Assembly (NCBI GenBank): GCA_024641545.1
Contig: JAHECW010000019.1
Location: forward strand, 1-46,901
Length of the DNA stretch: 46,901 nucleotides
Source of the DNA: Acidobacteriota bacterium
Lineage (GTDB): Bacteria > Acidobacteriota > Thermoanaerobaculia > Thermoanaerobaculales > Sulfomarinibacteraceae
Direction: 5' to 3'
The position numbers and the translations under genes are program-made. Shown here in pieces: positions 1,717-16,138 of the stretch (position 1 is its first letter; every line of letters starts with the position of its first letter). The notes below the pieces were generated by a model that was not told the origin of the DNA, made no database searches, and saw only the letters and a program-made list of their open reading frames with translations.

Positions 1717-2481
1717 TCATCGCGGACCGACGTCCGCGAGAAGGCGGTCGATCTCCGCGACCGTCGGGTTGTCGGGCCCGAAACCGATCAGGCTCGAGCC
1801 GAGCTCGCCGAGTTCGGCGAGAGCGTCGTCGAGCGGCAATCCTATCAATAGATCCGCTTTGGTCTTTTCTCGAACCGCCGCCGCGCCGTTAGGGATCCGG
1901 CCGTCGCGCAGCCGGTTGACGATGATCGCCAGCGCGCCGACCTCGAGACCCATTTCGCGCGCCAGTTCGTGGAGCCGCTCCACCGTCGTGAGCCCGGCCT
2001 GCGACGGGTCGGAGACCATCACCAGCAGATCGACCCGGCGGACGATCCGGCGGGAGAGGTTCTCGAGGCCGGCCTCGTTGTCGATCACCAGCACCGGGTA
2101 GTCGTCGGCCAACCGTTCGATGACTCTCTTGAGGACGTTGTTGGCATAGCAGTAGCAGCCCGGACCCTCGCAACGACCCATGGCGATGAGGTCGAAGTCG
2201 TCGGCTTCCACCAGGCTCTCGGCGATCTTGAGCTCGAGCATCTGCTGTTTGGAGACGCCCGACCCGAGACCCTTGCCGGCGAGCTCACGCGCCTGCTCGC
2301 GCACCGCGCCCACGGTCTGGGCGACCTCGACCCCGAGGGCGGCGTCGAGACAGCAGTTGGGGTCGGCGTCGACTGCGAGCACCGGCTTGGAACCGCGCGC
2401 GATCAGGCGCGACACGGTCAGCGCCGCCACCGTCGTCTTGCCGGTGCCGCCCTTGCCCGCGATGGCGATCGTAAAGGACAT
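1717..2481 (-). CDS. cooC: CooC/AcsF-type nickel-insertion ATPase (MinD/SIMIBI fold)
   Basis: ATP-dependent maturation factor that delivers nickel to CO dehydrogenase or acetyl-CoA synthase. The 254-residue product has the deviant Walker A motif GKGGTGKT at residues 9-16, a VDADPN segment at about 38-42, and a GPGCYC motif whose CXC (C109, C111) is the conserved metal-binding pair at the CooC dimer interface. The VIDNEAG segment is the Walker B-like region and 'MVSDPS' follows it, as usual in this family. The gene lies directly upstream of cooS, as in known coo/acs operons, so CooS is its expected client. A second, divergent CooC-type gene sits further up the same operon. Length and motifs agree fully with the family. 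Confidence 0.93.
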   Translation of the reverse strand: MSFTIAIAGKGGTGKTTVAALTVSRLIARGSKPVLAVDADPNCCLDAALGVEVAQTVGAVREQARELAGKGLGSGVSKQQMLELKIAESLVEADDFDLIAMGRCEGPGCYCYANNVLKRVIERLADDYPVLVIDNEAGLENLSRRIVRRVDLLVMVSDPSQAGLTTVERLHELAREMGLEVGALAIIVNRLRDGRIPNGAAAVREKTKADLLIGLPLDDALAELGELGSSLIGFGPDNPTVAEIDRLLADVGPR

Positions 2482-2487
2482 GATCGG

Positions 2488-3564
2488 TCAGGCCCCGTGT
2501 TTCTCGCGCAGCGCGAGCGACAGCTCCCGGGTCATCCGGAACACCCGTTCCGCGTCCGTCACCTCCATCGACCCGGTGCCGCACGAACCGGTGAGCATCG
2601 TCTGCTGGTAGACCAGCCCGCGGTCGACGCCGCTCTTCGCGACGAGGTTGTCGACCATCTTCTCGTAGTGGGCGACCAAGGTCTCGGCGGTGTTGTTCCT
2701 TACCGCGGTCGATGTCGGCACCACGCCCCAGGCCAACGCGTTGCCGTTCTCGAGGTGTTTCCTGACCTGGGCCGGGTACATGGCGATGGTCTCGCCGTAC
2801 TGGTAGGCGTCGAAGTTGACGATCTCGGCGCCGGCGTCGATCGGGATCGACCACTCGGTGTTGCCGCAGCAGTGGATGCCGGCGAGGGCGCCGTCGGCGT
2901 GGATGGCGTCCACCAGCTCTCCGAGCGCGGCCACCACCTCGTCCCGCGTGACCGAAACATAGGTCGAGCTGCCGAAGCCGGAGAGGATCGGTTCGTCGAT
3001 CGCGCAGATCACCCGGTCGGCGTACGGCTTGAACCGCTGGATCTGCCACCGGCATTTCATGGCCAGCGCCTTGATGATGACGTCGCGGAACTCCTCGTTG
3101 TACCACAGGGCGCGCTTGTTCTCGTCGACGATGGTGAGGGCGAAGGAGCACGGCCCGGTGGTCTGGCACTTGACGAACGGTCGCCTGCCCTCTTGGGCGC
3201 CGAGCCGTTTCTCGAGCTCGTAGATCCCGGCCCCGAACTCGGGTGAGACCGCCATCGAAGCGACATCGCCGGTGCCGTCATCGGGATCCATGGCGGCCAT
3301 GTAGCCCTCGTAGAACTCGGTGAACGCATCGATGTAGTCGCCCGAGGTTTCGAAGAACATCCGGCCCTTGGCGCGGTCGATGACCCGGCAGGGCATGCCC
3401 TCGGAGTACTGGATCTCCATCTGCTCGTTGAGACCGCGGCCCGACAGCTGGGGCCACATCGGCGCCTCGGGGAGGGTTGCGAGAACCACATCCACCGCCG
3501 CCGCGGCATCACCGTGGGGCATGCTGCCCACCGCACAGGCCAGGAAATCGGGTTTGAACACCAT
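2488..3564 (-). CDS. UroD/MetE-like zinc methyltransferase (methylcobamide:thiol methyltransferase family)
   Basis: A 358-residue protein of the uroporphyrinogen decarboxylase / cobalamin-independent methionine synthase superfamily, which includes MtaA/MtbA coenzyme M methyltransferases. The ATG at 3564 follows a strong AGGAG site; the frame stays open upstream but lacks family similarity there. Candidate zinc ligands are H231 and C232/C233 in IHCCGNTEW, with C328 in GSCGTGS near the C-terminus, matching the H-x-C...C pattern of the methyltransferase branch rather than a decarboxylase. In this operon it is a candidate second acceptor enzyme, moving methyl groups between the corrinoid protein and an unknown thiol. 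The thiol is not identifiable from sequence, and a role in porphyrin metabolism is unlikely. Stop codon is 6 bp before the following cooC. Confidence 0.8.
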   Translation of the reverse strand: MVFKPDFLACAVGSMPHGDAAAAVDVVLATLPEAPMWPQLSGRGLNEQMEIQYSEGMPCRVIDRAKGRMFFETSGDYIDAFTEFYEGYMAAMDPDDGTGDVASMAVSPEFGAGIYELEKRLGAQEGRRPFVKCQTTGPCSFALTIVDENKRALWYNEEFRDVIIKALAMKCRWQIQRFKPYADRVICAIDEPILSGFGSSTYVSVTRDEVVAALGELVDAIHADGALAGIHCCGNTEWSIPIDAGAEIVNFDAYQYGETIAMYPAQVRKHLENGNALAWGVVPTSTAVRNNTAETLVAHYEKMVDNLVAKSGVDRGLVYQQTMLTGSCGTGSMEVTDAERVFRMTRELSLALREKHGA

Positions 3565-3593
3565 GGTCCCTCTCCTTTCTCTTCCGGCTGCGA

Positions 3594-3806
3594 CTACTTC
3601 CGCACGTGGATCTTCTTGCACGCGTCGGAGATTCGCGCCAACTCCCACATCCGCTCCGCGAGCCGTTCGCGGAGCTCGCCGAGGTCCTCCCGCAGCTCGG
3701 TCCCGCCCCCGGCGGCGATCGCATCCTCGAGCTTCTCGACCCGGACCTCGAGCTCGTCGATCTCGGTCATGATGCGGACGTACTTCTCGCGCGCCACATC
3801 GGTCAT
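3594..3806 (-). CDS. Small coiled-coil protein of unknown function
   Basis: A 70-residue product starting at the ATG at 3806, which overlaps the stop of the preceding CooC-type gene as ATGA, so translation is coupled. Residues from about 8 to 60 are dominated by Glu, Arg, Leu and Ile in heptad-like spacing (IDELEVRVEKLEDAI, then LREDLGELRERLAERM), predicting a helical hairpin or coiled coil broken by a GGG turn near residue 39. The C-terminus is basic with one Cys (DACKKIHVRK). I recognise no family. Its position between a CooC-type ATPase and the UroD-like methyltransferase, with very short spacings, argues that it is a real gene of the operon, perhaps an adaptor or small subunit. Confidence 0.7.
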   Translation of the reverse strand: MTDVAREKYVRIMTEIDELEVRVEKLEDAIAAGGGTELREDLGELRERLAERMWELARISDACKKIHVRK

Positions 3807-4597
3807 CGGTCCGCCTCCCCCTGCACGACCCGCAACAGACCCTCGAAGGCCTCGAGGGTCCTCCCATCCAAGCCGTCCACGACCGACCGGCGGTCGCGAT
3901 CCGCCGCGCGGATTCCCTCCGACAGGGGAATCGCGGCGACGATCTCGCGATCGGCGAGCGCGTCGCGGAGCCATTGTTCATCATCGGGCGTCGCGATCTT
4001 GTTGGCCACCACGCGGACGTCGCGGAGACCGATTTCGGCCGCCATGCGGAAGACCCGGTCGGCGCACTCGACCGAGGTCCGGCTCGGCTCGACAACCACG
4101 AGCAGCACATCGACGCCGCGCGCGGTTCCTCGACCGAGATGCTCGATCCCAGCCTCCATGTCCATCACCAGGGCCTCGTTCTTGTGCAGCACGAGATCGG
4201 CCACCAGGGCTTTGATCAAGACGCTCTCAGGGCATGCGCAGCCCGAGCCCCCGGCCTCGATTGCGCCGAGCACCAACAGCGCCACCCCTTCGTGAACCAG
4301 CGCGTATCGGTCGGCGATATCCGCGACCTCGGGGTTGAGCTTGAAGATCTGACCGTACTGCCGGACCTTGGCGCCGGTCCGCTCCTCGATGAGCGCCCGG
4401 TGCTCCGAGATCGGGACGATCTCTCGTTGCCGTGCCTCAGGCACGCCGAGAACGGTGGCGAGATTCGCGTCGGGATCGGCATCCACCGCCAGCACCCGCC
4501 GGCCGGCCCGGGCCTGAAGCAGCGCGAGGGCCCCCGCGATGGTGGACTTGCCCGATCCCCCCTTGCCGGCAACCGCGAGTTTCAATGATGAACTCAA
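3803..4597 (-). CDS. Second CooC-type nickel-insertion ATPase, divergent paralogue
   Basis: A 264-residue MinD-like ATPase. I chose the TTG at 4597 because GGAGG lies 7 bases upstream and the protein then begins right before the P-loop; a longer open frame to 4690 has no family similarity. Visible motifs are the deviant Walker A GKGGSGKST (11-19), VDADPDANL (38-45), a GSGCACPE motif whose C120-X-C122 is the CooC metal site, and VMDMEAGIEHLGRGT. It is clearly CooC family but far from the other copy at 1717-2481, so the two ATPases may load different clients, for example CODH versus an acetyl-CoA synthase or another metalloprotein. The stop overlaps the next start (ATGA). Confidence 0.9.
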   Translation of the reverse strand: MSSSLKLAVAGKGGSGKSTIAGALALLQARAGRRVLAVDADPDANLATVLGVPEARQREIVPISEHRALIEERTGAKVRQYGQIFKLNPEVADIADRYALVHEGVALLVLGAIEAGGSGCACPESVLIKALVADLVLHKNEALVMDMEAGIEHLGRGTARGVDVLLVVVEPSRTSVECADRVFRMAAEIGLRDVRVVANKIATPDDEQWLRDALADREIVAAIPLSEGIRAADRDRRSVVDGLDGRTLEAFEGLLRVVQGEADR

Positions 4598-4726
4598 CGA
4601 AGAACCTCCGAAAAAGCTCCCGGGGCGGGTGGATCGAAAGCCGACGGAGAGCCGGTCTCGAGGATTCGAGATGCCGTCACCGACCCCCACCCGGCGGTGA
4701 ATCCGCAGTGGTTCGCCGGATTGATC

Positions 4727-5632
4727 TCAGCCCCCAATCGACCCGCCTCGGTGGGCGTCGATCAGCCCGCGCAGGGCTCGGATGTGATCGGGGCCGGTGC
4801 CGCAGCAGCCGCCGATGACGGCAACCCCGAGATCGATCAGTTGGCCGGCGGCTTCGGCCATGAACGCCGGCGTTTCCGGGTACACGACCTCCCCGGCCCG
4901 GTTTTCGGGAAGCCCGGCGTTGCTCTGGATGGCGATCGGCAGCCGAGAACATCTCCTGAACTCGCGGGCGATCTCGACCATCTTCTTGATGCCGTTGCCG
5001 CAATTGGACCCGACGATATCCGCCCCCGCTTCCTCGAGGCCGGCAGCCGCCTTTTCGATCGACGTTCCCATGATGGTGAAGAATCCGTTCGGGGTGGCGT
5101 CGAAGGTCATGGTGGCCAAGATCGGGATCTCGGTCGAGAAAGATCGTGCCGCTTTGATCGCGAGCTGCGCTTCACTCAGGTCGATCATGGTTTCGACGCA
5201 GATCATGTCGGCGCCGGCCCCGATCAGAGCTCCGATCTGACGGACAAAGGAGTCGGAAATCGCTTCCGGCGCCGTGTCCCCATAGGGCAGGAGCAACTTG
5301 CCGCACGGCCCGACCGAGCCCGAGATCAATGCGCGGTCGCCGATCACCGGGCGGAGAACCTCGACGGCGCGGCTGTTGATCTCCTCGGTCCGGTCGCCGA
5401 GCGAATAGTCTGCAAGCTTGAGCGATGAACCCCCGAAGGTGTTGGTGGTGATGATCTCGGCCCCCGCCTCGAGGTAGAGCGCGGCGATCTCCCGCAATGC
5501 CTCGGGCCGGGTGAGATTGAGGTTCTCCGGACACGCCCCCGGCTTGAGCCCGCGCGCCATGAGCATGGTGCCCCACGCCCCGTCGCCGAGGAGAAGCTCG
5601 CCCGCGCGCAACTTCGTGAGCAGATCCGTCAT
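4727..5632 (-). CDS. Stand-alone homocysteine S-methyltransferase domain protein (MetH N-terminal module-like)
   Basis: A 301-residue TIM-barrel homocysteine S-methyltransferase matching the first module of MetH and the BHMT/MmuM family: methyl transfer to homocysteine to form methionine. Key features are the GDGAWGTML start motif, CPENLNLTRPE, the TNTFGGSS segment, and the three zinc-binding cysteines C211 (SNCGNG) and C276/C277 (GGCCGTGPDHI). The ATG at 5632 is preferred; a GTG at 5659 is possible. No pterin, cobalamin or activation domain is attached; the latter two are encoded as separate genes just upstream in the operon. It probably takes methyl groups from the neighbouring corrinoid protein. 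A 129-bp gap separates it from the downstream CooC gene, the largest gap inside this operon. Confidence 0.88.
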   Translation of the reverse strand: MTDLLTKLRAGELLLGDGAWGTMLMARGLKPGACPENLNLTRPEALREIAALYLEAGAEIITTNTFGGSSLKLADYSLGDRTEEINSRAVEVLRPVIGDRALISGSVGPCGKLLLPYGDTAPEAISDSFVRQIGALIGAGADMICVETMIDLSEAQLAIKAARSFSTEIPILATMTFDATPNGFFTIMGTSIEKAAAGLEEAGADIVGSNCGNGIKKMVEIAREFRRCSRLPIAIQSNAGLPENRAGEVVYPETPAFMAEAAGQLIDLGVAVIGGCCGTGPDHIRALRGLIDAHRGGSIGG

Positions 5633-5693
5633 TGAAGCACCCCCGCCCGAGTCGTCCACCCTGCTGCGGCCACGCCTGCCGAACTCGACATCG

Positions 5694-6335
5694 TCAAGCG
5701 ACTCCCAGCAGAGCCTTCACCTGATCGACCGCATTCGCCGCGTCGTAGCCGTACGCGTCGGCGCCGATCTCGTCGGCGAAGTCCTTCGAAACCGGGGCGC
5801 CGCCGATGATGGTCCGGATCTTCCCGTTCAAACCGCGTTCTCGGAGCAGATCCACGACTCCCTTCATCGACGACATGGTGGTCGTGAGCAGCGCCGAAAT
5901 GCCGATCACCGGCGCACCCGCCTCCACCGCGGTGTCGACGAAACGCTCGGCGGAGACGTCGTTGCCGAGATCGATGACCTCGATTCCCGCCCCCTTCAGC
6001 ATGATCCCCACCAGGTTCTTGCCGATATCGTGGAGATCGCCCTGGGCGGTGCCGATCACCACCTTCCCGACGGCCGGGATTCCCTCCTCGATCATCAACG
6101 GCTTGAGCAGATCGATTCCTTTCTGCATGGCGCGGGCGGCGAGGAGCACCTCGGGAAGAAAGATCTCGTGACGGCGGAACAGATCGCCCACCACGTTCAT
6201 CCCCCCGATGAGTCCGTCGTCGAGGATTGCTCCCACCCCCATGCCCGCATCGATGGCCTGGCGCGTCAACTCGGCGACGCGGTTGTCGTCCCCTTTTCTG
6301 AGGCTGGCACCGATCTCCTGAAGAATATCCATCAT
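5694..6335 (-). CDS. Corrinoid (cobalamin-binding) methyl carrier protein, MtaC/MtbC/MttC family
   Basis: Carries a methyl group on cobalamin between methyltransferases. The 213-residue product has the helical cap domain (about 1-85) and the Rossmann-like B12 domain with the base-off signature DLHDIGKNL, where H102 is the lower cobalt ligand. The S-x-L segment (ISALLTTTM) and the IIGGAPVS loop that holds the nucleotide tail are also present. Tandem ATG codons occur at 6335 and 6332; the second has better spacing from GGAGG, the first overlaps the upstream stop. It sits downstream of MttB and the reactivation protein, the expected partner arrangement. The substrate is set by the MttB homologue rather than by this protein. 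Confidence 0.95.
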   Translation of the reverse strand: MMDILQEIGASLRKGDDNRVAELTRQAIDAGMGVGAILDDGLIGGMNVVGDLFRRHEIFLPEVLLAARAMQKGIDLLKPLMIEEGIPAVGKVVIGTAQGDLHDIGKNLVGIMLKGAGIEVIDLGNDVSAERFVDTAVEAGAPVIGISALLTTTMSSMKGVVDLLRERGLNGKIRTIIGGAPVSKDFADEIGADAYGYDAANAVDQVKALLGVA

Positions 6336-7060
6336 TGACCTCCAATTGTGTCGTCAAGAACCGACTGGATCCGTTCTCGGCAGCCCTGGTCCGCACAGTC
6401 GGCGCAAAAATCAAAATCGATGTCGAACTGGTGAACCTCTCGGTCGGCCGCCACCAGGACGCCCGAGACCGACTTCAGCGGTTGCATGAGGCAGCTCTCG
6501 TTGAGCGAGATGCCGATCTCTTCCGGCCGAAGAACCTCGAAGAGCTTTCCCTGGCCGCTGACGTGCCAGCCGCAGTAGCCCGGACTGTACGGCAGCACCC
6601 GCATCCCGGAAGCCATCGTACCCGACCGCGCAAGGCATTCCTGGTGATCGCGAGCCATTGCCCCGGCCAGACCCTCGGCGCCGGCGGACGCGATGGTGTC
6701 GAGCGCGTAGCCGAGCGCCGGATCCCCATCGCTGAACCGGCGGAGGATCTCGCCGCACACGGCCTCACCGACGGTGACCGCGAACAACGTCAGGCGGCGA
6801 GCATCGGGAAAGATCGCCTCGAGCGGCGTCCGGGGGGCGTTCCGGCCCTCGCCCCGGTAGATCACGGCGAAGTCCGCGATCGAGACATCGGCTCGAATGC
6901 CCGCGGGATCGACGAGGTCAGCGTAGATCTCAAACGCCTCGTCGACCAGCTCAGCAACTCGTAGCGGCACCGCGGCGTCGCCCGGAATCCCCTGCGCGCT
7001 CAACACCGTCCGACGACTCGGGATCGCCGCGGAGGAGGGAAAATGCACGGCCCCGGACAT
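6332..7060 (-). CDS. MetH-type cobalamin reactivation domain protein with C-terminal Cys cluster
   Basis: A 242-residue protein resembling the C-terminal activation domain of cobalamin-dependent methionine synthase, which binds S-adenosylmethionine and reductively remethylates cob(II)alamin. The diagnostic stretch is R154-x-LPYSPGY (to 162), followed by GQGKLFEVL and EIGISLNES, equivalent to the R-x-x-x-GY SAM-binding motif. It starts with an ATG at 7060 that overlaps the upstream mttB stop (TGATG), and its own stop overlaps the corrinoid gene start. A stand-alone activation domain is known from Thermotoga maritima. Unusual here is the end of the protein, F-C219-A-D-C222-x4-C227, a CxxCxxxxC cluster that could bind a metal or Fe-S centre. 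It likely replaces the Fe-S RamA/RACE reactivase usual in MttB systems. Confidence 0.85.
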   Translation of the reverse strand: MSGAVHFPSSAAIPSRRTVLSAQGIPGDAAVPLRVAELVDEAFEIYADLVDPAGIRADVSIADFAVIYRGEGRNAPRTPLEAIFPDARRLTLFAVTVGEAVCGEILRRFSDGDPALGYALDTIASAGAEGLAGAMARDHQECLARSGTMASGMRVLPYSPGYCGWHVSGQGKLFEVLRPEEIGISLNESCLMQPLKSVSGVLVAADREVHQFDIDFDFCADCADQGCRERIQSVLDDTIGGQ

Positions 7061-8511
7061 CAACCCCGACCCGGCAGGCTCTGCATGCCGAAACGACGCG
7101 CTTCGGCTGTCATCAGCCGGTCCAGCTCGGTCGTGACGTCGTCGGAGAGAGCCGAGGGGGCACAGGCAGCGACGAGTCTCTCCACCTCTTTGGCGGCCCG
7201 CTCGTGCAGGGTGATGCCGCCCTCCTCGTGCCAGCGTGAGCTGTTGGCCCGATCGACGACCGGGCCCGGGAAGAAGATCTCTTCCTTGAGGTGGCGGCGG
7301 GTGTGGTCGGCGATGAGCAGGTGCTTGTCGCGGAGCAGCTCCTCGAAGATCGGGGTCGACGGGAAGTCCTCGCGCGGCTCGATGCCCCGCACCAGACGCT
7401 GCGTCAATCCGCAGATCTCGTTGTCGACCACCAGCTTCTCGAGGCTCTGGCAGCTCTCGAAGTCGAGCATGCCGGGGCCGGAGATGCTGTTGATGCCGGA
7501 AAGCGCGGCCAGGGTGGCGCCCATGGAGGTTTCAAAACCCGCCTGAGCATCGAGCTGTTTGGCGTCGCTCATCCCGATGTATGCCTGGGTCGGCATGCCG
7601 AGGTGCTTGCCGATCTCGCTGTAGGCGCAATCGATCATCTGGGTTTCAACCGCGCCCATCGGCGTGGTCTCGTAGCGAATGTCGAAGATCGCGGGCGATC
7701 CGCCGTAGAGAACCGGCGCTCCCGGGCTGGCAGCCTGGCTGATGACGACGCCGCTGAGGGTCTCGGCGGTGTGTTGGATCAGCGATCCGACCAGCGTGAC
7801 CGGCGCCATGAAGCCCGACAGCGGCATCGAGATGAACTCCACCGGGATGCCCTGGCGAGCGCAGTCGACGACGTTCTGCGAGGTCACGTCGCTCCACTTG
7901 ATAGGGGAGGTCGGACAGCACGAGAAGATCGTCAGCGGCTTTGCCTTGAGCTCCTCCGCCGAGCCGCGGACCGCGAGTTGGAGATCACGCATGATGTCGA
8001 AGGCGGCGATGGTGAAGGCGCCGGTGACCACCGGCTTTTCACAGTACATCAAACTGAGAAAGAGACGGTAGCTGTCCGAGATCTCCTCCGGCACGTCGGT
8101 GGTAATGAATGCCGTGCTCTGCGCCTGGATGTGCTCCAAACCGCTCATCAGCTTGGCGTATCTGATGTAGTCGCCGGTGACTGGTTTTCTCATCCGGCCG
8201 TTGTCGAGGATCTTGATCGCGGCCGATCCCGGCGTGAAGTGCACGTTGTCGCCGGAGAAATCGTGCGTCTGCCGGCCGATCGCATCGTAAAGCTTGAACC
8301 CGCTCGGAACGGTGGCGAGCGCCTGGTCGATGAGGCCGTCGGTCAGCCGCACGTGCTGCTTGGAGAGATCCACGTCTGCGCCGTGATCGCCGAGCAGGGC
8401 GAGAACCCGCGGGTTGTGAATCTCCACGCCGAGCGTGCACAGCAGATGGCGGGCCTCGTCGATGATCTTGGTTTTCAGTTCGTCGCCGAGGAACGTGAGA
8501 GCGGGACGCAT
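7060..8511 (-). CDS. MttB-family methylamine:corrinoid methyltransferase, non-pyrrolysine type (copy 1)
   Basis: A 483-residue member of the trimethylamine methyltransferase (MttB) superfamily, first gene of the operon. The ATG at 8511 follows GGAGG at 6 bases. Family hallmarks include the N-terminal helical segment LLCTLGVEIHNP, the SGLEHIQAQST region, SCCPTSPIKWS, the SMPLSGFMAPVTLVGS segment, and the late GINSISGPGMLDFESCQS. No internal TAG is present, so it belongs with MtgB/MtpB/MtcB-like enzymes that demethylate betaines rather than with pyrrolysine-containing MttB. The expected reaction is transfer of a methyl group from a quaternary amine to the corrinoid protein encoded two genes downstream. 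The substrate cannot be read from sequence. Confidence 0.92.
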   Translation of the reverse strand: MRPALTFLGDELKTKIIDEARHLLCTLGVEIHNPRVLALLGDHGADVDLSKQHVRLTDGLIDQALATVPSGFKLYDAIGRQTHDFSGDNVHFTPGSAAIKILDNGRMRKPVTGDYIRYAKLMSGLEHIQAQSTAFITTDVPEEISDSYRLFLSLMYCEKPVVTGAFTIAAFDIMRDLQLAVRGSAEELKAKPLTIFSCCPTSPIKWSDVTSQNVVDCARQGIPVEFISMPLSGFMAPVTLVGSLIQHTAETLSGVVISQAASPGAPVLYGGSPAIFDIRYETTPMGAVETQMIDCAYSEIGKHLGMPTQAYIGMSDAKQLDAQAGFETSMGATLAALSGINSISGPGMLDFESCQSLEKLVVDNEICGLTQRLVRGIEPREDFPSTPIFEELLRDKHLLIADHTRRHLKEEIFFPGPVVDRANSSRWHEEGGITLHERAAKEVERLVAACAPSALSDDVTTELDRLMTAEARRFGMQSLPGRG

Positions 8512-8731
8512 GATGATCCTCCCTGCGATGGTTGGGGTTCTCACACAAACACAACGGTACCGTACCACAATTTGGCGTACAATCTCATCATATGGAACGT
8601 GATAGATTCCAGGTCAATTCAGGCGGACGGGTTGACCGCCGGCGCGGCCTCGTGTCGACCACTCGTCGGTCCGGATTCGCGGCGGGGATGACCACCCCGT
8701 TCTTGGATTCACGGTGCCAAAGGAGACCGAC
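8512..8731. promoter_or_regulatory. Divergent intergenic region with an 11-bp palindrome upstream of the MttB/CODH operon
   Basis: The 220 bp between the minus-strand operon and the plus-strand BNR gene should hold both promoters. On the minus strand, a weak promoter-like pair (TTGTAC and TACCGT, 17 bp apart) overlaps the palindrome GGTAC-C-GTACC at 8556-8566, about 45 bp before the mttB start. This palindrome could be an operator. No B12 riboswitch-like element or intrinsic terminator is visible. Confidence 0.35.
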
Positions 8732-11700
8732 ATGAACACGATCCGGAGAATTCTGATCTCGTTGCTGGTGCTGTCGACCGCGAGCCTGGCTCTTGCCGCG
8801 GGCGGGGAAGGCGTGAACCGGGATTCGTTTGACGGCCTCGAGTACCGGCTCATCGGTCCCGCGACGGGCGGGCGGGTGGCGCGGGTTGCGGGGGTCGCCG
8901 GCGACCCGCTGGTCTACTACGCCGCGACCGCGGCGGGCGGTGTCTGGAAGTCGGTCAACGGCGGCACGAAGTGGGAGTCGGTCTTCGACGATCAGCCGGT
9001 CTCGTCCATCGGGTCGATCGCGGTGGCGCCGTCGGACCCGAACGTGATCTGGGTCGGCTCCGGTGAGGCCAACATCCGCGGCAACGTCGGCGAGGGCAAC
9101 GGGATCTATCGCTCGACCGACGCCGGCGAAACCTGGTCTCACGTGTGGACTGCCGAGGGTCAGATCGGGACCATGGCGGTCCATCCGGACGACCCGGAGA
9201 CGGCGTTTGCGGCGGTTCTCGGCAGCCCCTTCGGGCCCGGGCCCGACCGCGGCGTCTTCCGCACCACCGATGGCGGCACCACCTGGCAGAAGGTCCTGTA
9301 CAAAGACCTCGACACCGGCGCCTCCGACGTCTGCTTCGACCCGTCGAACCCGCGCATCCTCTATGCCGGGCTGTGGCAGACCCGGCGGCAACCCTGGGGG
9401 ATGACCTCGGGCGGCACGGGGAGCGGTCTGTATGTCTCGCGCGACGGCGGCGACAGTTGGAAGCAGATCGAGGACGAGGGCCTCCCCAAGGGCATCTGGG
9501 GAAAGGTCGGGGTTCGCGTCGCCGTCGGCGAGCCCAACCGGGTCTACGCCCTCATCGAGGCCGACGAGGGCGGGCTCTTCCGCTCCGACGACGGCGGAAA
9601 ATCGTGGACCCGGATCAATCCGTCGCGGGGACTGCGCCAGCGGGCCTGGTACTACTCGACGCTGACCATCGATCCCGCCAACCCCGACATCGTCTGGTTT
9701 CCCCAGGTGGCCATGCTCAAGACCATCGACGGCGGCGGCAGCGTGCGTGCGGTCAAGGGCGGGGGCTGGGACTACCACGATGTGTGGATCGATCCGACCG
9801 ATTCGAACCGGATGATCATCGCCAGCGACGCCGGCGTCTCGCTCTCCGCGGACCGCGGCGAGACCTGGGTTCGACCGGCCATCCCGATCGCCCAGTTCTA
9901 CCACCTCACCGTCGACAGCCGCACGCCGTACCGGGTGCTCGGCAGTCTGCAGGACTTCGGGACGGCGTCGGGTCCGAGCAACAGCCTGCACGGCGGAGGG
10001 ATCTACGTATCGGACTGGTATTCGGTCGGAGGCGGTGAGGCCGGTCACGTCGCCGCCGACCCATCCGACCCGGAAACCGTCTGGGCCGGCGAGTACCTCG
10101 GCTACATTTCCCGCTTCGACGGTCGCACCGGCCAGGCGCCGCACGTCGGGATCTACCTCGACAACGGATCCGGCCACGGTGCGGCGGACCAACGTTTCCG
10201 CTTTCAGTGGACCGCTCCGATCGCGATCTCTCCGCACGACCCCAAGGTTGTCTACCACGCCGCCAACGTCCTGTTCCGGACCTCAGACGGCGGTCAGAGT
10301 TGGCGGGCGATCAGCCCCGACCTGACCCGCGATGACCCGGCGAAACAGGCCTGGGCTGGAGGGCCCATCACCGGCGACAACACCGGAGTCGAGTTCTACT
10401 GCACGATCTTCTCGGTCGCCGAGTCGCCGGTCGAACCGGGCGTGATCTGGGCCGGCAGCGACGACGGTCTGGTGCACGTGACCAGGGACAACGGCGCCAC
10501 CTGGGTCAACGTCACCCCGCCCGGAACCCCCGAGTGGGGCACCGTCGCCACCATCGAGGCGTCGCGCTGGAATGCCGGGACCGCCTACGTGGTGGTGGAC
10601 GCCCACCGACTCGACGACGAAACCCCGTACCTCTTCAAGACCGAGAACTTCGGCCGCACCTGGACGAGCCCGACAACCGGCCTCGACCGCGAGACCTATC
10701 TCCACGTGGTGCGTGAGGACAGGCTGCGCCCGGACATGCTCTTCCTGGGAACCGAGCGCGGAGTCATGATCTCGCGCAACGGCGGCGCCGGATGGGAGTC
10801 TCTTCGCCTCAACATGCCGACCGTCGCGGTGGTCGACCTGGCGCTGGCCGGCGACGATTTGGTGGTCGGGACCCTCGGGCGCTCGGCCTGGATCCTCGAC
10901 GATCTGACCCCGGTGCGCGAGATGTCGCCGGAGATCGCGGCGGCACCGGAGCACCTCTTCGCTCCGCGTCCGGCGGTGCGCTGGCGGTACGCCGACGCAC
11001 CCTACGGAAGCAGCGCCGGCGCCGGCGACAATCCACCCCGAGGGGCGATCATCAGCTTCGTTCTCCTGGAGGATCCAAAGGGGGAGGTCACCATCGATGT
11101 GCTCGATTCGGACGGAAGGCTGGTGCGCCGGCTGAGCAGCGCGATCGAGGCGCCGTACACGCCGCCGGAGCACCCCGACTGGAACCCCGCCACCGAGGCC
11201 GAACCCGAGTTCGAGGCCGCGGCCGGAACCAACCGGGCATCGTGGGACCTCGAGTGGGACGAGGCAAAGTGGCCCTCCGACGCCCGCTTCGATACCGGAA
11301 CGCCGAGACCGGGCCCGCTGGCGGCGCCCGGGGAGTACACGCTGCGGCTGACGGTGGACGGCCGTTCCACAACCCGGCCCCTGCGGGTCGATGCCGACCC
11401 GCGTTCGTCAGCCTCGGTCGCCGACATCGAGGCGCAGGTGGCTTTCGCCCTCGAAATCCGAGCGCAGCTGGAGCGGATCACCGCCATGGTCGAGACCATC
11501 CGCGGGCTTCGCTCGCAGCTCGAGGACCGCAACAAACGTCTCGCCGACGACCCCCGGGCCGGTGAGCTGGTGAAATCGGGCGAGGCGCTCATCGCCGGCC
11601 TCTCGGCGCTTGAGGAAGCCATCCACAACCCCAACGCGGAAGTCGACTACGACGTCCTGGGCGGCCGCCACGGCGGGGCCAAACTCTGGTCCCGGCTGAG

Positions 11701-11902
11701 CTGGCTGTTCAACAGCGCGCGCGAGCACGACGGGCCGCCGACCCAGGGAATGACGGAGGCCGGCGCCGAGCTCGCGACCGAGTTGGCGCAACAGGCATCC
11801 GCGCTCGATGCGCTCCTCGCCGAAGATCTGGCACGAATCAACGATCTGGCGAGCGAACTCTCCATCGAGTATGTGTTGACGCCGGAAACCGGTCCCCGGT
11901 GA
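8732..11902 (+). CDS. Secreted BNR/Asp-box beta-propeller protein (VPS10/sortilin-like propeller)
   Basis: A 1056-residue exported protein. The ATG at 8732 has an AAGGAG site and begins a Sec signal peptide (hydrophobic core LISLLVLSTASLALA, likely cleaved after residue 23 or so). About ten Asp-box motifs of the form S/T-x-D-x-G-x-T/S-W run through residues 60-680, for example STDAGETW, TTDGGTTW, SDDGGKSW and TSDGGQSW, building one or two propellers. After about residue 690 comes a beta-rich region with a FlgD-like segment (EVTIDVLDSDG), then a charged helical C-terminal segment of about 170 residues. Proteins of this architecture are often labelled glycosyl hydrolase, but I see no catalytic sialidase-type arginine triad that would support it. 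The function is unknown; binding or degradation of extracellular polymers is possible. Confidence 0.85.
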   Translation: MNTIRRILISLLVLSTASLALAAGGEGVNRDSFDGLEYRLIGPATGGRVARVAGVAGDPLVYYAATAAGGVWKSVNGGTKWESVFDDQPVSSIGSIAVAPSDPNVIWVGSGEANIRGNVGEGNGIYRSTDAGETWSHVWTAEGQIGTMAVHPDDPETAFAAVLGSPFGPGPDRGVFRTTDGGTTWQKVLYKDLDTGASDVCFDPSNPRILYAGLWQTRRQPWGMTSGGTGSGLYVSRDGGDSWKQIEDEGLPKGIWGKVGVRVAVGEPNRVYALIEADEGGLFRSDDGGKSWTRINPSRGLRQRAWYYSTLTIDPANPDIVWFPQVAMLKTIDGGGSVRAVKGGGWDYHDVWIDPTDSNRMIIASDAGVSLSADRGETWVRPAIPIAQFYHLTVDSRTPYRVLGSLQDFGTASGPSNSLHGGGIYVSDWYSVGGGEAGHVAADPSDPETVWAGEYLGYISRFDGRTGQAPHVGIYLDNGSGHGAADQRFRFQWTAPIAISPHDPKVVYHAANVLFRTSDGGQSWRAISPDLTRDDPAKQAWAGGPITGDNTGVEFYCTIFSVAESPVEPGVIWAGSDDGLVHVTRDNGATWVNVTPPGTPEWGTVATIEASRWNAGTAYVVVDAHRLDDETPYLFKTENFGRTWTSPTTGLDRETYLHVVREDRLRPDMLFLGTERGVMISRNGGAGWESLRLNMPTVAVVDLALAGDDLVVGTLGRSAWILDDLTPVREMSPEIAAAPEHLFAPRPAVRWRYADAPYGSSAGAGDNPPRGAIISFVLLEDPKGEVTIDVLDSDGRLVRRLSSAIEAPYTPPEHPDWNPATEAEPEFEAAAGTNRASWDLEWDEAKWPSDARFDTGTPRPGPLAAPGEYTLRLTVDGRSTTRPLRVDADPRSSASVADIEAQVAFALEIRAQLERITAMVETIRGLRSQLEDRNKRLADDPRAGELVKSGEALIAGLSALEEAIHNPNAEVDYDVLGGRHGGAKLWSRLSWLFNSAREHDGPPTQGMTEAGAELATELAQQASALDALLAEDLARINDLASELSIEYVLTPETGPR

Positions 11903-12014: not shown

Positions 12015-13475
12015 ATGGCGCACATCCAAGACGTCAGCTCGCTCTCCTTCGGATTTCGGATTCTCAGCGACTCCCAGCTCACCCAGATCCATCACGCGTC
12101 GCTGGAAATCCTGCGCCGCACCGGGGTGCGCGTCCGCCATGGCGAAGCGCTCGATCTCCTCCGCGATGCCGGGTGTCCGATCAGCGACGGCGATCTGGTG
12201 AAGTTCCCGGCGGCGGTGGTCGAGGAAGCGGTGCGCTCCGCTCCCTCGAGGATCGTGCTCTGCGACCGCACCTCCGAGCCGCGGGTCTTTCTCGAGCGCC
12301 AGAGGTCCTACTTCGGGACCGGGTCGGACCTGCCCCACACCCTCGACCTCGAGACCGGTCAGAGGCGACTGTCCCTCCTGTCCGACGTGGCGGACACCGC
12401 CCGTCTGGCGGACGCGCTGCCCAACCTCGATTTCGTGATGTCGATGGCCCTGCCGTCGGACGTGGCCCCGGCGACCTCGGACCGGCACTCCTTCCTGACG
12501 ATGATCTCGAACACCTCGAAACCGGTGGTGTTCACCGCTTGGGATGAGACCGGGCTGGCCGACATCATCGCCATGGCGGAGATCGTCGCCGGCTCAGCCG
12601 AACGCTTGAGCCTGAACCCGTTTCTCCTCGCCTACCTCGAACCGTCGTCGCCGCTGCAGCACTCCGAAACCGTGCTGCGCAAGATGATGATCATGGCCGA
12701 CAAACGGCTGCCCTTCGTCTACGCGCCGGGTCCGGTCGAAGGCGCATCGGCGCCGGTGACGTCGGCCGGCAGCCTGGCCATGGCCAACGCCGAGGTCCTG
12801 AGCGGCATCACCATCGCCCAGTTGCGGCAGCGCGGCGCGCCGGTGGTCTACGGGTCGGGCAGCGGCCCCCTCGACATGCTCACCACCGTCGCGACCTACG
12901 GCAGCCCGGAGTTCATGCTCCACTGCAAGGCGATGGCCGAGCTCGGACACCACTTCTACAAGCTGCCGGTGTGGGGGTTCGCGGGCTGCTCCGACTCCAA
13001 ACAACCGGATCTCCAGGCCGGCGCCGAGAGCTCTCTGTGGATCCTCTGGACCGCGCTGACCGGGGCCAATCTGGTCCACGACATCGGGTACGTGGAGTCG
13101 GGGATGACCTGTTCTTCCGAAATGATCGTCGCCTGCGACGAGATCATCGGTCTGGTGCGCCGGCTGCTCGGTGGTATCGAGCTGACGCCGGAGACCCTGG
13201 CGCTCGAGGTGATCGACGAGGTCGGACCGGGCGGCGACCACCTCTCCACCGATCACACCTATCGTCACTTCAGGAAGTGCTGGTACCCCCGCGTCTTCGA
13301 CCGCAGCAGCCACCAGTCCTGGGTCGAGGCGGACCGGCCGACCGCTGTCGCGACCGCGCGCGAGATCGCCCGTCGGGCGATCGCCGAACATGAGCCCGAC
13401 CGGCTGCCTGCAGCGACCCTCGAGACCCTCCGCGATCTGGTCACGGCGGCCGACGAGCGCGCCGGGATCAAGTAG
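12015..13475 (+). CDS. MttB-family methyltransferase (copy 2)
   Basis: A 486-residue MttB-superfamily protein without an internal amber codon. Matching segments are LEILRRTGVRVRHGEALDLL, the LPNLDFVMSMALPSD region, NTSKPVVFTAWDE, APGPVEGASAPVTSAGSLAMANAEVL and DIGYVESGMTCSSEM. It is clearly diverged from copies 1 and 3 in this window, so a different methylated substrate is likely. It has no corrinoid protein or reactivase next to it and may rely on the carrier of the 1-8511 operon or on one encoded elsewhere. Ten bases downstream starts an MFS symporter, which could import the substrate. The Shine-Dalgarno site is weak (AAGGT), and the ATG at 12015 is chosen by alignment of the N-terminus with the family. 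Confidence 0.9.
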   Translation: MAHIQDVSSLSFGFRILSDSQLTQIHHASLEILRRTGVRVRHGEALDLLRDAGCPISDGDLVKFPAAVVEEAVRSAPSRIVLCDRTSEPRVFLERQRSYFGTGSDLPHTLDLETGQRRLSLLSDVADTARLADALPNLDFVMSMALPSDVAPATSDRHSFLTMISNTSKPVVFTAWDETGLADIIAMAEIVAGSAERLSLNPFLLAYLEPSSPLQHSETVLRKMMIMADKRLPFVYAPGPVEGASAPVTSAGSLAMANAEVLSGITIAQLRQRGAPVVYGSGSGPLDMLTTVATYGSPEFMLHCKAMAELGHHFYKLPVWGFAGCSDSKQPDLQAGAESSLWILWTALTGANLVHDIGYVESGMTCSSEMIVACDEIIGLVRRLLGGIELTPETLALEVIDEVGPGGDHLSTDHTYRHFRKCWYPRVFDRSSHQSWVEADRPTAVATAREIARRAIAEHEPDRLPAATLETLRDLVTAADERAGIK

Positions 13476-13484
13476 TCTTTGCCA

Positions 13485-14801
13485 ATGCCGAGCGCCGGCA
13501 AAGCGGGTTCTGATCGTCAACGATCACATGTTCGCTGGGTGATCCTCGCCCTTCTTTTCATGGCGAGCTTCGTGGCCTATGTCCTCCGTACAAACATGTC
13601 CATTGCCGGCGAGAACATGTCTGCCGATCTCAATCTGTCCAGGATTCAGTTGGGTATGGTGCTTTCGGCTTTTGCCTGGGGATACGCCATTTTCCAGTTT
13701 CCGGGCGGGGTTTTCGGTGACCTCTTGGGGTGCCGTCGGACACTGACCGTGATCGCCATATTGTGGGGAATCCTGACATTGGCCACCGGGCTGGTACCGG
13801 GGACAACCCTCGCATCCACAACGCTCATTCTCACCACGCTCATCGGTCTGCGATTTCTGATCGGCATCGCGCAGGCACCGCTGTTCCCAGTGGCCTGTGG
13901 TGGAACGATCGGAAACTGGTTTCCTGTGTCGGGGTGGGCGTTCCCAAACGGACTGACGAGCACCGGGCTGACTCTTGGCGCCGCCGCCACGGCACCGCTG
14001 ATCGCTTGGCTGATGGAAAAATTGGGGTGGCGTGAGTCCTTTATCCTGACCGCGCCTTTGGCATTTCTGGTTGCAGGTGCCTGGTGGTGGTACGGGAGAG
14101 ACGACCCGGCTGATCACCCGCGGGTCAGCAAGAAAGAGCTGGACCTGATCAATGCCAACCGACCGTCACCGAACCCGGTCATCGAAGACAATCAAGCGTG
14201 GAGACGCGTCCTCAGAAATCGAGACATCCTGCTGCTGACCGCGAGTTATTTCTGCATGAACTACGTCTTCTACATTTTTTTCAACTGGTTCTTCATCTAC
14301 CTCGTCGAGGTTCGTGGGTTCGAGATCCTGGAAGGGGGCACCCTCGCCGCGGCTCCATGGATCGTCGGTGCCGTCGCCGCAAGCGTCGGCGGGTTTTGGT
14401 GCGATCGCCTCGGCAAACGACTCAATTCCCGCTGGGGATGCAGAATCCCCGGCATCGCCGGCCTCAGTCTCGCTGCCGGTCTTCTATTTCTCGGTGCCAC
14501 CGCCGAGAGTCCTTATCTGGCGGTCGCGTTGCTTTCGTTGTGCTTCGGGTGCACCCAGCTCACCGAGGGAGCCTACTGGGCGACGGCGATCTCCATTTCC
14601 GGCAAACACGCATCAGCCGCCACAGGAGTCATGAACACCGGTGGAAATGTCGCGGGAGGCATCGGGGCTCTTCTCGTTCCGATCACGGCCGAAACCTTCG
14701 GCTGGGTGCCGGCGCTTGCAACCGGATCGGTATTCGCGATGATCGGTGTTGGGTTGTGGTTGTTCGTGCGCGCCGACAAACCCATGGCTTTGGGCTCTTG
14801 A
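13485..14801 (+). CDS. MFS transporter, anion:cation symporter (ACS)-like
   Basis: A 438-residue membrane protein with about 12 hydrophobic segments. The N-terminal segment RTNMSIAGENMSADLNLSRIQLGMVLSAFAWGYAIFQFPGG is typical of the ACS family (hexuronate, glucarate and other organic-anion symporters); it contains the AWGYA...PGG pattern before the first cytoplasmic loop (GDLLGCRR). The ATG at 13485 is preferred over an in-frame TTG at 13479. The gene follows mttB copy 2 by 10 bases and is likely cotranscribed. Its base composition is noticeably less GC-rich than both neighbours, with many TTT, ATT, AAA and GGA codons, which suggests separate acquisition. Substrate is unknown; a carboxylated betaine or other organic anion is a reasonable guess. 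Confidence 0.88.
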   Translation: MPSAGKAGSDRQRSHVRWVILALLFMASFVAYVLRTNMSIAGENMSADLNLSRIQLGMVLSAFAWGYAIFQFPGGVFGDLLGCRRTLTVIAILWGILTLATGLVPGTTLASTTLILTTLIGLRFLIGIAQAPLFPVACGGTIGNWFPVSGWAFPNGLTSTGLTLGAAATAPLIAWLMEKLGWRESFILTAPLAFLVAGAWWWYGRDDPADHPRVSKKELDLINANRPSPNPVIEDNQAWRRVLRNRDILLLTASYFCMNYVFYIFFNWFFIYLVEVRGFEILEGGTLAAAPWIVGAVAASVGGFWCDRLGKRLNSRWGCRIPGIAGLSLAAGLLFLGATAESPYLAVALLSLCFGCTQLTEGAYWATAISISGKHASAATGVMNTGGNVAGGIGALLVPITAETFGWVPALATGSVFAMIGVGLWLFVRADKPMALGS

Positions 14802-14932
14802 GAAGCCTGGTCACCGGCATTTCTGGGCCGCGTCGTCGGTGACTGACCTGTTCTCGTTTGGAGACGACGCTCTTACCATGCCGGAGTATTTTCTCTCGTG
14901 GTAAGGTGCCACCAGACCCTCAGGGAGGCCGC

Positions 14933-16138
14933 GTGAACAACGATCATGACATCTTCGAGGCCATCGACCGGACCGCGCCGATCGACCTCCTCGCCGCTCT
15001 GGTTCAGAGTCCCAGTCACCCCGGTGTCGCCGATCAGGAGACCGGGGTCGCCGAGGCGCTGGCGGGCTTCCTCGAGCAAGGGGGGCTCCGACCGGAGCTC
15101 GTGGAGGTCGCCCCCGGCCGGCCCAACCTCATGTGCACCCTCGAGGGCGGCACACCGGGCCCGCACCTCGTCCTCTGCGGCCACACCGACACCGTACCTC
15201 TCAACCAGGGAGATCCCGGTCACGGGTTTTCCGGTGCGGTCCGCGACGGTCGGCTCTTCGGCCGCGGCGCCGTCGACATGAAGGGGGCGGTGGCGGCCAT
15301 GGCCGCCGCGCTGGTGGGACTGCGGCGAACCGGGGCTCTCGCCGCGGGCAGGGTGACGCTCGCCGCGGTCATCGACGAGGAGATCGAAAGCCTCGGCGCC
15401 GAGCACCTCATCAACTCCGGTTTCACCGCCGACGGCGCCATCGTCGGCGAGCCCACCTTGAACCGGATCTGCATCGGGCACAAGGGTCTGGAGTGGCTCG
15501 AGATCGTCTTTACCGGCAAGGCGGCGCACGGCGGCACCCCGACCGCGGGGATCAACGCCATCGACGCGGCGGCGAGCTTTGTCCAACGGGTCCGGACCGT
15601 CCTGCTGCCCGAGTTCGCCGCCCGCACCGACGTCCTCCTCGGCCCGCCGACCCTCAACTTCGGCACCGTGCGCGGCGGCGATCAGCCGTCCACGGTGGCC
15701 GCGTCGTGCGTGCTGACGGCGGACCGGCGCTCGCTCCCGGGCGAGACCTACGAGTCCATGCGTGCGGAGCTCGAGAGCGTCCTCGCCGCGGTCGAGGCTG
15801 AGATGCCCGGCTTGCGCACTGAACTCCGCCGGCTGCCCGGCGGTATGGCGACCCTCGAGCACCTGGCGCTGAAGACCGCGCCGTCCGAAGCGGTCGTGGA
15901 GGCGGTCGCCGCCGCCCGCCGCCGGGTCTGCGGCCTGGCCGGAGAGCTCGGCGCTTTCCCGGCCTGGACCGACGGTGCGCTGCTTTCGGCGTTCGCCGGG
16001 ATTCCGACGCTGATCCTGGGCCCGGGCGATCTCGCGGTCGCCCACTCGCCGGAGGAGTCGGTCGAGATCGCGCAGGTGATCGAGGCCGCGCGGATCTACG
16101 CCCTCACCGCCACAGAATTCTGCGGCCGGGCGACATGA
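14933..16138 (+). CDS. M20-family metallopeptidase / ArgE-DapE-like deacylase
   Basis: A 401-residue cytoplasmic zinc amidohydrolase that removes acyl groups from N-acyl amino acids or cleaves small peptides. I chose the GTG at 14933 because GGGAGG precedes it by 4 bases and the longer frame has no family similarity. Metal and catalytic motifs are GHTDTVPLN, GRGAVDMKG (bridging Asp), IDEEIESLGAEHL (catalytic Glu pair), GEPT and the lid-domain AHGGTPTAG; a late AHSPEE supplies the last His. Its stop codon overlaps the start of a YfcC-type carrier (ATGA), so uptake and hydrolysis of one substrate are probably linked. The exact substrate (acetylornithine, succinyl-diaminopimelate, acyl amino acid, dipeptide) cannot be set. 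Confidence 0.9.
   Translation: MNNDHDIFEAIDRTAPIDLLAALVQSPSHPGVADQETGVAEALAGFLEQGGLRPELVEVAPGRPNLMCTLEGGTPGPHLVLCGHTDTVPLNQGDPGHGFSGAVRDGRLFGRGAVDMKGAVAAMAAALVGLRRTGALAAGRVTLAAVIDEEIESLGAEHLINSGFTADGAIVGEPTLNRICIGHKGLEWLEIVFTGKAAHGGTPTAGINAIDAAASFVQRVRTVLLPEFAARTDVLLGPPTLNFGTVRGGDQPSTVAASCVLTADRRSLPGETYESMRAELESVLAAVEAEMPGLRTELRRLPGGMATLEHLALKTAPSEAVVEAVAAARRRVCGLAGELGAFPAWTDGALLSAFAGIPTLILGPGDLAVAHSPEESVEIAQVIEAARIYALTATEFCGRAT

Follow-up and report, generated by a model that had tools for sequence, protein, structure and literature searches.

Corrinoid proteins of methylotrophic systems need re-reduction to work, and in MttB-linked systems this is usually assigned to RamA. A contig of an Acidobacteriota bacterium (Sulfomarinibacteraceae; JAHECW010000019.1), analysed here as a window of 46,901 nucleotides, raises the question of whether a different protein could do this work: flanked by an MttB-type methyltransferase gene and a corrinoid-protein gene is one for a short relative of the activation domain of methionine synthase (MetH), here called ACT, which ends in a cluster of cysteines. 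The original prediction regarded it as a SAM-type activator with an added metal or Fe-S centre.

An activation-domain protein in an MttB operon

The reading frame of ACT (Table 1) extends to 7063 if a TTG is taken as start, and the opposite strand over the gene contains just an unrelated shadow frame broken by stops. The sole Pfam match is PF02965 (Met_synt_B12; 37.4 bits, cut-off 25), which is also matched by 28 of 28 proteins in the ACT alignment; no NCBIfam model represents the subfamily. An AlphaFold2 model (mean pLDDT 92.6, lowest in the C-terminal tail at about 66-79) finds as its top solved structure TM0269 (1j6r; Z 19.0, rmsd 2.4, 192 residues), in which the activation domain of Thermotoga methionine synthase stands alone, followed by the MetH activation domains of T. 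thermophilus (8ssc), E. coli (1msk/6bm5), and human (2o2k) at Z 14-16 over about 205-215 residues, with the nearest unrelated fold at Z 6.0. ACT is thus a stand-alone relative of the MetH activation domain, as originally proposed. Nitroreductase folds show a weak likeness to the model (Z 4-6), possibly only a common arrangement.

With the MetH domain ACT shares the PGY motif, an acidic residue at the position of Glu1097, and a corrinoid partner; it differs in standing alone, in having P157 at the position of Arg1134, C163 after PGY (MetH has PAC), and a lysine in P-x-K-S, and in its cysteine tail. TM0269 has a K-S near the C-terminus, like ACT.

The genes of the operon are tightly packed: the MttB stop overlaps the ACT start (TGATG), and the ACT stop overlaps the start of the corrinoid-protein gene (ATGA). 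The probable ATG of the MttB gene lies about 57 bases inside its reading frame, and the corrinoid protein scores 200 bits against TIGR02370, below that model's cut-off. The adjacent MttB-type and corrinoid proteins identify an MttB-superfamily module, and the order MttB, ACT, corrinoid protein, homocysteine S-methyltransferase-type protein (SMT) is kept in most loci with enough flank, in many phyla. Beyond these four genes, a search of the flanks showed nothing conserved, neither ferredoxin nor flavodoxin; the most frequent other flanking family, present at 13 of 96 loci, seems unrelated. The nearest published system, the glycine betaine system MtgBCD/MtgE of Ruegeria pomeroyi, likewise brings an MttB-type protein, a corrinoid protein, and a homocysteine methyltransferase together, but its reactivation is predicted to depend on RamA and a DUF1638 protein (PMC12478193), whereas the ACT operon contains a PF02965 protein with a cysteine tail. 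A search of the open-licence literature found neither the tail nor the four-gene module described; an earlier account may exist elsewhere.

Table 1. Features of the window discussed in the text
Feature	Position	Strand	Remarks
ACT, stand-alone MetH-activation-like protein	6332..7060	minus	ATG 7060-7058, stop TGA 6334-6332; 242 aa
C-terminal tail of ACT, C219-x2-C222-x4-C227-x2-R230	6368..6406 (codons 219-230 about 6371-6406)	minus	Recognised by conservation
Motif P157-Y-S-P-G-Y-C163-G-W165 of ACT	6566..6592	minus	PGY kept; R1134 position is P157; invariant C163 follows
MttB-superfamily methyltransferase without pyrrolysine	7060..8568	minus	PF06253, 240.5 bits
Corrinoid (B12-binding) protein, DLHDIG motif	5694..6335	minus	PF02310, 91.8 bits; PF02607, 77.8 bits
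SMT, Zn-ligand motifs NC and GGCCGT	4727..5659	minus	PF02574, 222.4 bits
Genes downstream of the module	1717..4690	minus	Include CooC-like ATPases at 1717-2481 and 3803-4591
1062-aa protein	8714..11902	plus	Repeats resembling BNR/VPS10-type propeller repeats (by eye)
Second MttB-superfamily gene	12015..13475	plus	
Likely MFS transporter	13479..14801		
Likely M20-type peptidase	14858..16138		

The window holds further genes. Downstream of the module lie two CooC/MinD-type ATPases, a small coiled-coil-like reading frame, and a UroD/MetE-like protein with a weak match to B12-independent methionine synthase. The ATPases and the UroD/MetE-like gene are missing from the surroundings of all other copies of the module examined, so they are not general partners of it; these downstream genes may serve the CODH/ACS pathway of the host (contig C258), possibly with a core-MetE-type enzyme. 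On the other side of the module, the second MttB-superfamily gene and its two neighbours could together serve to take up and demethylate another N-methyl compound.

Distribution of the cysteine tail

A search of 396 Acidobacteriota genomes recovered about 33 close relatives of ACT, and a scan of genome contigs matched at least 593 stretches, of which at least 550 encode relatives. The 80 best of these (at least 550) relatives belong to Acidobacteriota, Zixiibacteriota, Planctomycetota, Gemmatimonadota, Cloacimonadota, Fermentibacterota, WOR-3, Neomarinimicrobiota, Bacteroidota, Spirochaetota, Chloroflexota, and others; the viral contigs searched contained none. In 30 of 30 aligned Acidobacteriota relatives, at 37-49% identity, C219, C222, C227, and R230 are invariant. 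The three tail cysteines had been predicted at exactly this spacing; the arginine at 230 is additional, and so is a fourth cysteine, C163, equally invariant in the 30 proteins and overlooked at that time.

To avoid bias, the search for stand-alone activators of other phyla used an alignment (A2) that ended before the tail; the survey of tails covered phyla other than Bacillota and Desulfobacterota, and all groups were counted in one common alignment. In the clade that contains ACT (group C), which spans many phyla, all 112 untruncated members have the tail intact, and C163 directly follows PGY in 114 of 114. The MttB-linked members retain the three cysteines, the point that the original prediction had itself proposed to check by alignment. 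Fused MetH proteins, for which the absence of such a cluster had been correctly stated, have no tail in any of 61 cases, with a cysteine two residues beyond the C163 position in 44. The remaining stand-alone proteins fall into TM0269-like activators that, unlike ACT, have PGYGD and no tail, some of them adjoining split MetH (group A; tail 0/26), other tailed proteins, most of them next to genes for MttB and corrinoid proteins (group B; tail 27/27, C163 9/27), and proteins with a tail of the form CxLCPRExCxxR and MttB not nearby (group D; tail 20/20, C163 0/20); because the tail itself served in part to separate groups A and B, the tail counts of these two depend on how they were grouped. In a tree from which the columns of the tail, C163, and R1134 had been left out, group A, group D, and fused MetH each form one side of a branch, as does group C together with the proteins of L343 and L344 (support 99); these two loci, first assigned to group B, carry both C163 and the tail. 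Among the sequences compared, then, the tail is common to three stand-alone groups (B, C, and D) and is not unique to the ACT clade.

Group D activators, for example those of L297 (7077-7802) and L311 (7005-7703), have the tail C-x-L-C-P-R-x-x-C-x-x-R and PGS for PGY; in L297 the activator comes after two folD-like genes. In a PGHCGW subclade (L041, L042, L045, L053, L060, and L061), the activator lies by an S-methyltransferase with no MttB or corrinoid gene there, and most of the genomes concerned have RamA.

The tail is also associated with genomic context. Among 192 non-redundant stand-alone activators, an MttB or a lone corrinoid protein is encoded near 124 of those with the tail and absent near 36, some of which lie at contig ends or belong to group D; for tail-less activators the corresponding counts are 3 and 29 (Fisher p 3e-13, which overstates the evidence, the rows being related). 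The TM0269-like activators lie beside a split MetH in 6 of 20 loci and beside MttB in none.

A candidate metal site and the SAM arginine

The invariance of the tail residues, within the Acidobacteriota and across the clade, argues that the cysteine pattern is not due to chance. The number and spacing of the conserved cysteines are those of Fe-S ligands, which in itself shows just a plausible site. That the tail binds a metal is a good inference; that the metal is an Fe-S cluster serving electron transfer can be proposed with moderate confidence. The three cysteines and the arginine could instead hold zinc or be structural. The case for C163 as a fourth ligand beside them is weak, since most other tailed groups are without it and the cysteine of MetH lies two residues further on. 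Its incidence in groups B and D excludes it as an obligatory ligand in every tailed protein, and a search of these two groups for a substitute conserved cysteine or histidine yielded only a cysteine in 10 of 18 group B proteins; within the ACT clade a role as fourth ligand is possible.

That ACT reactivates the adjacent corrinoid protein is a strong inference. Our preferred reading, to which we assign a probability of roughly 0.55, is that ACT is devoted to corrinoid reactivation, with a metal centre, most likely Fe-S, bound by its tail and acting as an electron relay. The module would then be a methyltransferase in pieces, like a MetH with the folate domain swapped for MttB: MttB would take a methyl group from an N-methyl compound, the corrinoid protein would carry it, and homocysteine or a related thiol would receive it through SMT. 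After an accidental oxidation of cob(I) to cob(II), ACT would dock onto the cobalamin in the manner of the MetH activation domain and admit an electron; the centre held by C219, C222, and C227, perhaps with C163, and most likely [4Fe-4S], would relay this electron at low potential, with ferredoxin, for example, replacing flavodoxin as the source. In members that have the SAM arginine, SAM would supply the trapping methyl group; in members without it, including ACT, the group may derive from the MttB substrate, or the binding of SAM may differ.

This arginine bears on the reading that competes most seriously, namely that ACT is an ordinary SAM-plus-flavodoxin domain standing alone, its tail a structural zinc knuckle or an element for docking to the corrinoid protein, with no part in electron transfer. 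We consider this improbable overall, yet much the best of the alternatives. Fold and PGY motif agree with it, C-x2-C-x4-C-x2-R suits zinc as well as Fe-S, and the position of Glu1097 is still acidic, being E129 in ACT by alignment and Asp or Glu in 108 of 114 members of the clade. In the E. coli MetH motif R1134-P-A-P-G-Y, R1134 is the arginine that holds the SAM carboxylate. The MetH activation motif had been identified in ACT as R154 with PYSPGY; the latter is present (residues 157-162), but R154 is out of register, and in the alignment with E. coli MetH (GIRPAPGY), T. thermophilus MetH (GARYSFGY), and TM0269 (FRISPGY) the Arg1134 position falls on P157, which excludes R154 as the SAM arginine. 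An arginine at this position is present in 38 of 114 members of the ACT clade, which gives the SAM reading some support, and is gone from the other 76, ACT among them, as against its presence in 61 of 61 fused MetH proteins and 26 of 26 tail-less activators; tailed groups B and D have it in 22 of 27 and 4 of 20, respectively. The labels "SAM-type" and "SAM-dependent" are for this reason unproven for ACT.

A quite unlikely alternative makes ACT a thiol redox switch or sensor whose disulfides would turn corrinoid reactivation on or off. The position of the conserved cysteines close to the C-terminus would suit this, but their strict spacing and the invariant arginine over three groups are more like a metal-ligand motif, and most carriers belong to groups known mainly by metagenomes. 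Slightly less likely still is a SAM-independent, ATP-driven activator whose tail is fed electrons in NifH style by the two CooC-like ATPases, for these, which have CxC motifs and lie downstream on the same strand, occur beside the module in none of about 120 other loci nor in the one congeneric genome examined, and the host has CODH/ACS, the usual client of CooC.

Other reactivators and the place of the ACT family

Judged by the single Pfam domain PF14574, RamA/RACo is absent from 21 of 30 and from 33 of 42 module-bearing genomes, including all eight single-chromosome MAG assemblies tested (G469, G470, G473, G485, G486, G489, G506, and G510). Two of these chromosomes (G485 and G489) and two near-complete genomes (G101 and G161) have neither PF14574 nor a second PF02965 protein, which leaves the ACT homologue as their sole recognisable candidate reactivator. 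The genome of the window has a single RACo gene, 1-2 genes from those for CFeSP and ACS, so that this RACo has a client of its own; the same genome also encodes a full-length MetH, activation domain included, which counts against a dedicated role for ACT. In locus L358 (1-2784), a reading frame matching peptide-N-glycosidase F adjoins the RACo gene, which is unusual for such a bacterium.

RamA/RACo and ACT are alike in the proposed reduction of cob(II) on a stand-alone corrinoid protein and in a proposed metal centre, but ACT has no ASKHA ATPase domain and no ferredoxin domain and is much shorter (500-870 aa in RamA/RACo). A bolder extension, which we advance tentatively and regard as rather improbable as a whole, is a third route from cob(II), in which the MetH-activation fold would work without SAM or flavodoxin, using its own Fe-S cluster (C163 and the tail), with electrons from ferredoxin without ATP or with the MttB substrate trapping cob(I), in many anaerobic phyla without RamA.

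For the many genomes that encode an MttB module without RamA, the ACT family provides a concrete candidate for the reactivator, with testable chemistry. It also divides, by ligands and partners, the stand-alone "methionine synthase activation" proteins now gathered under one Pfam name. If the tail is an Fe-S relay, the design of the family would be intermediate between the SAM/flavodoxin and ATP/Fe-S routes of corrinoid reactivation.
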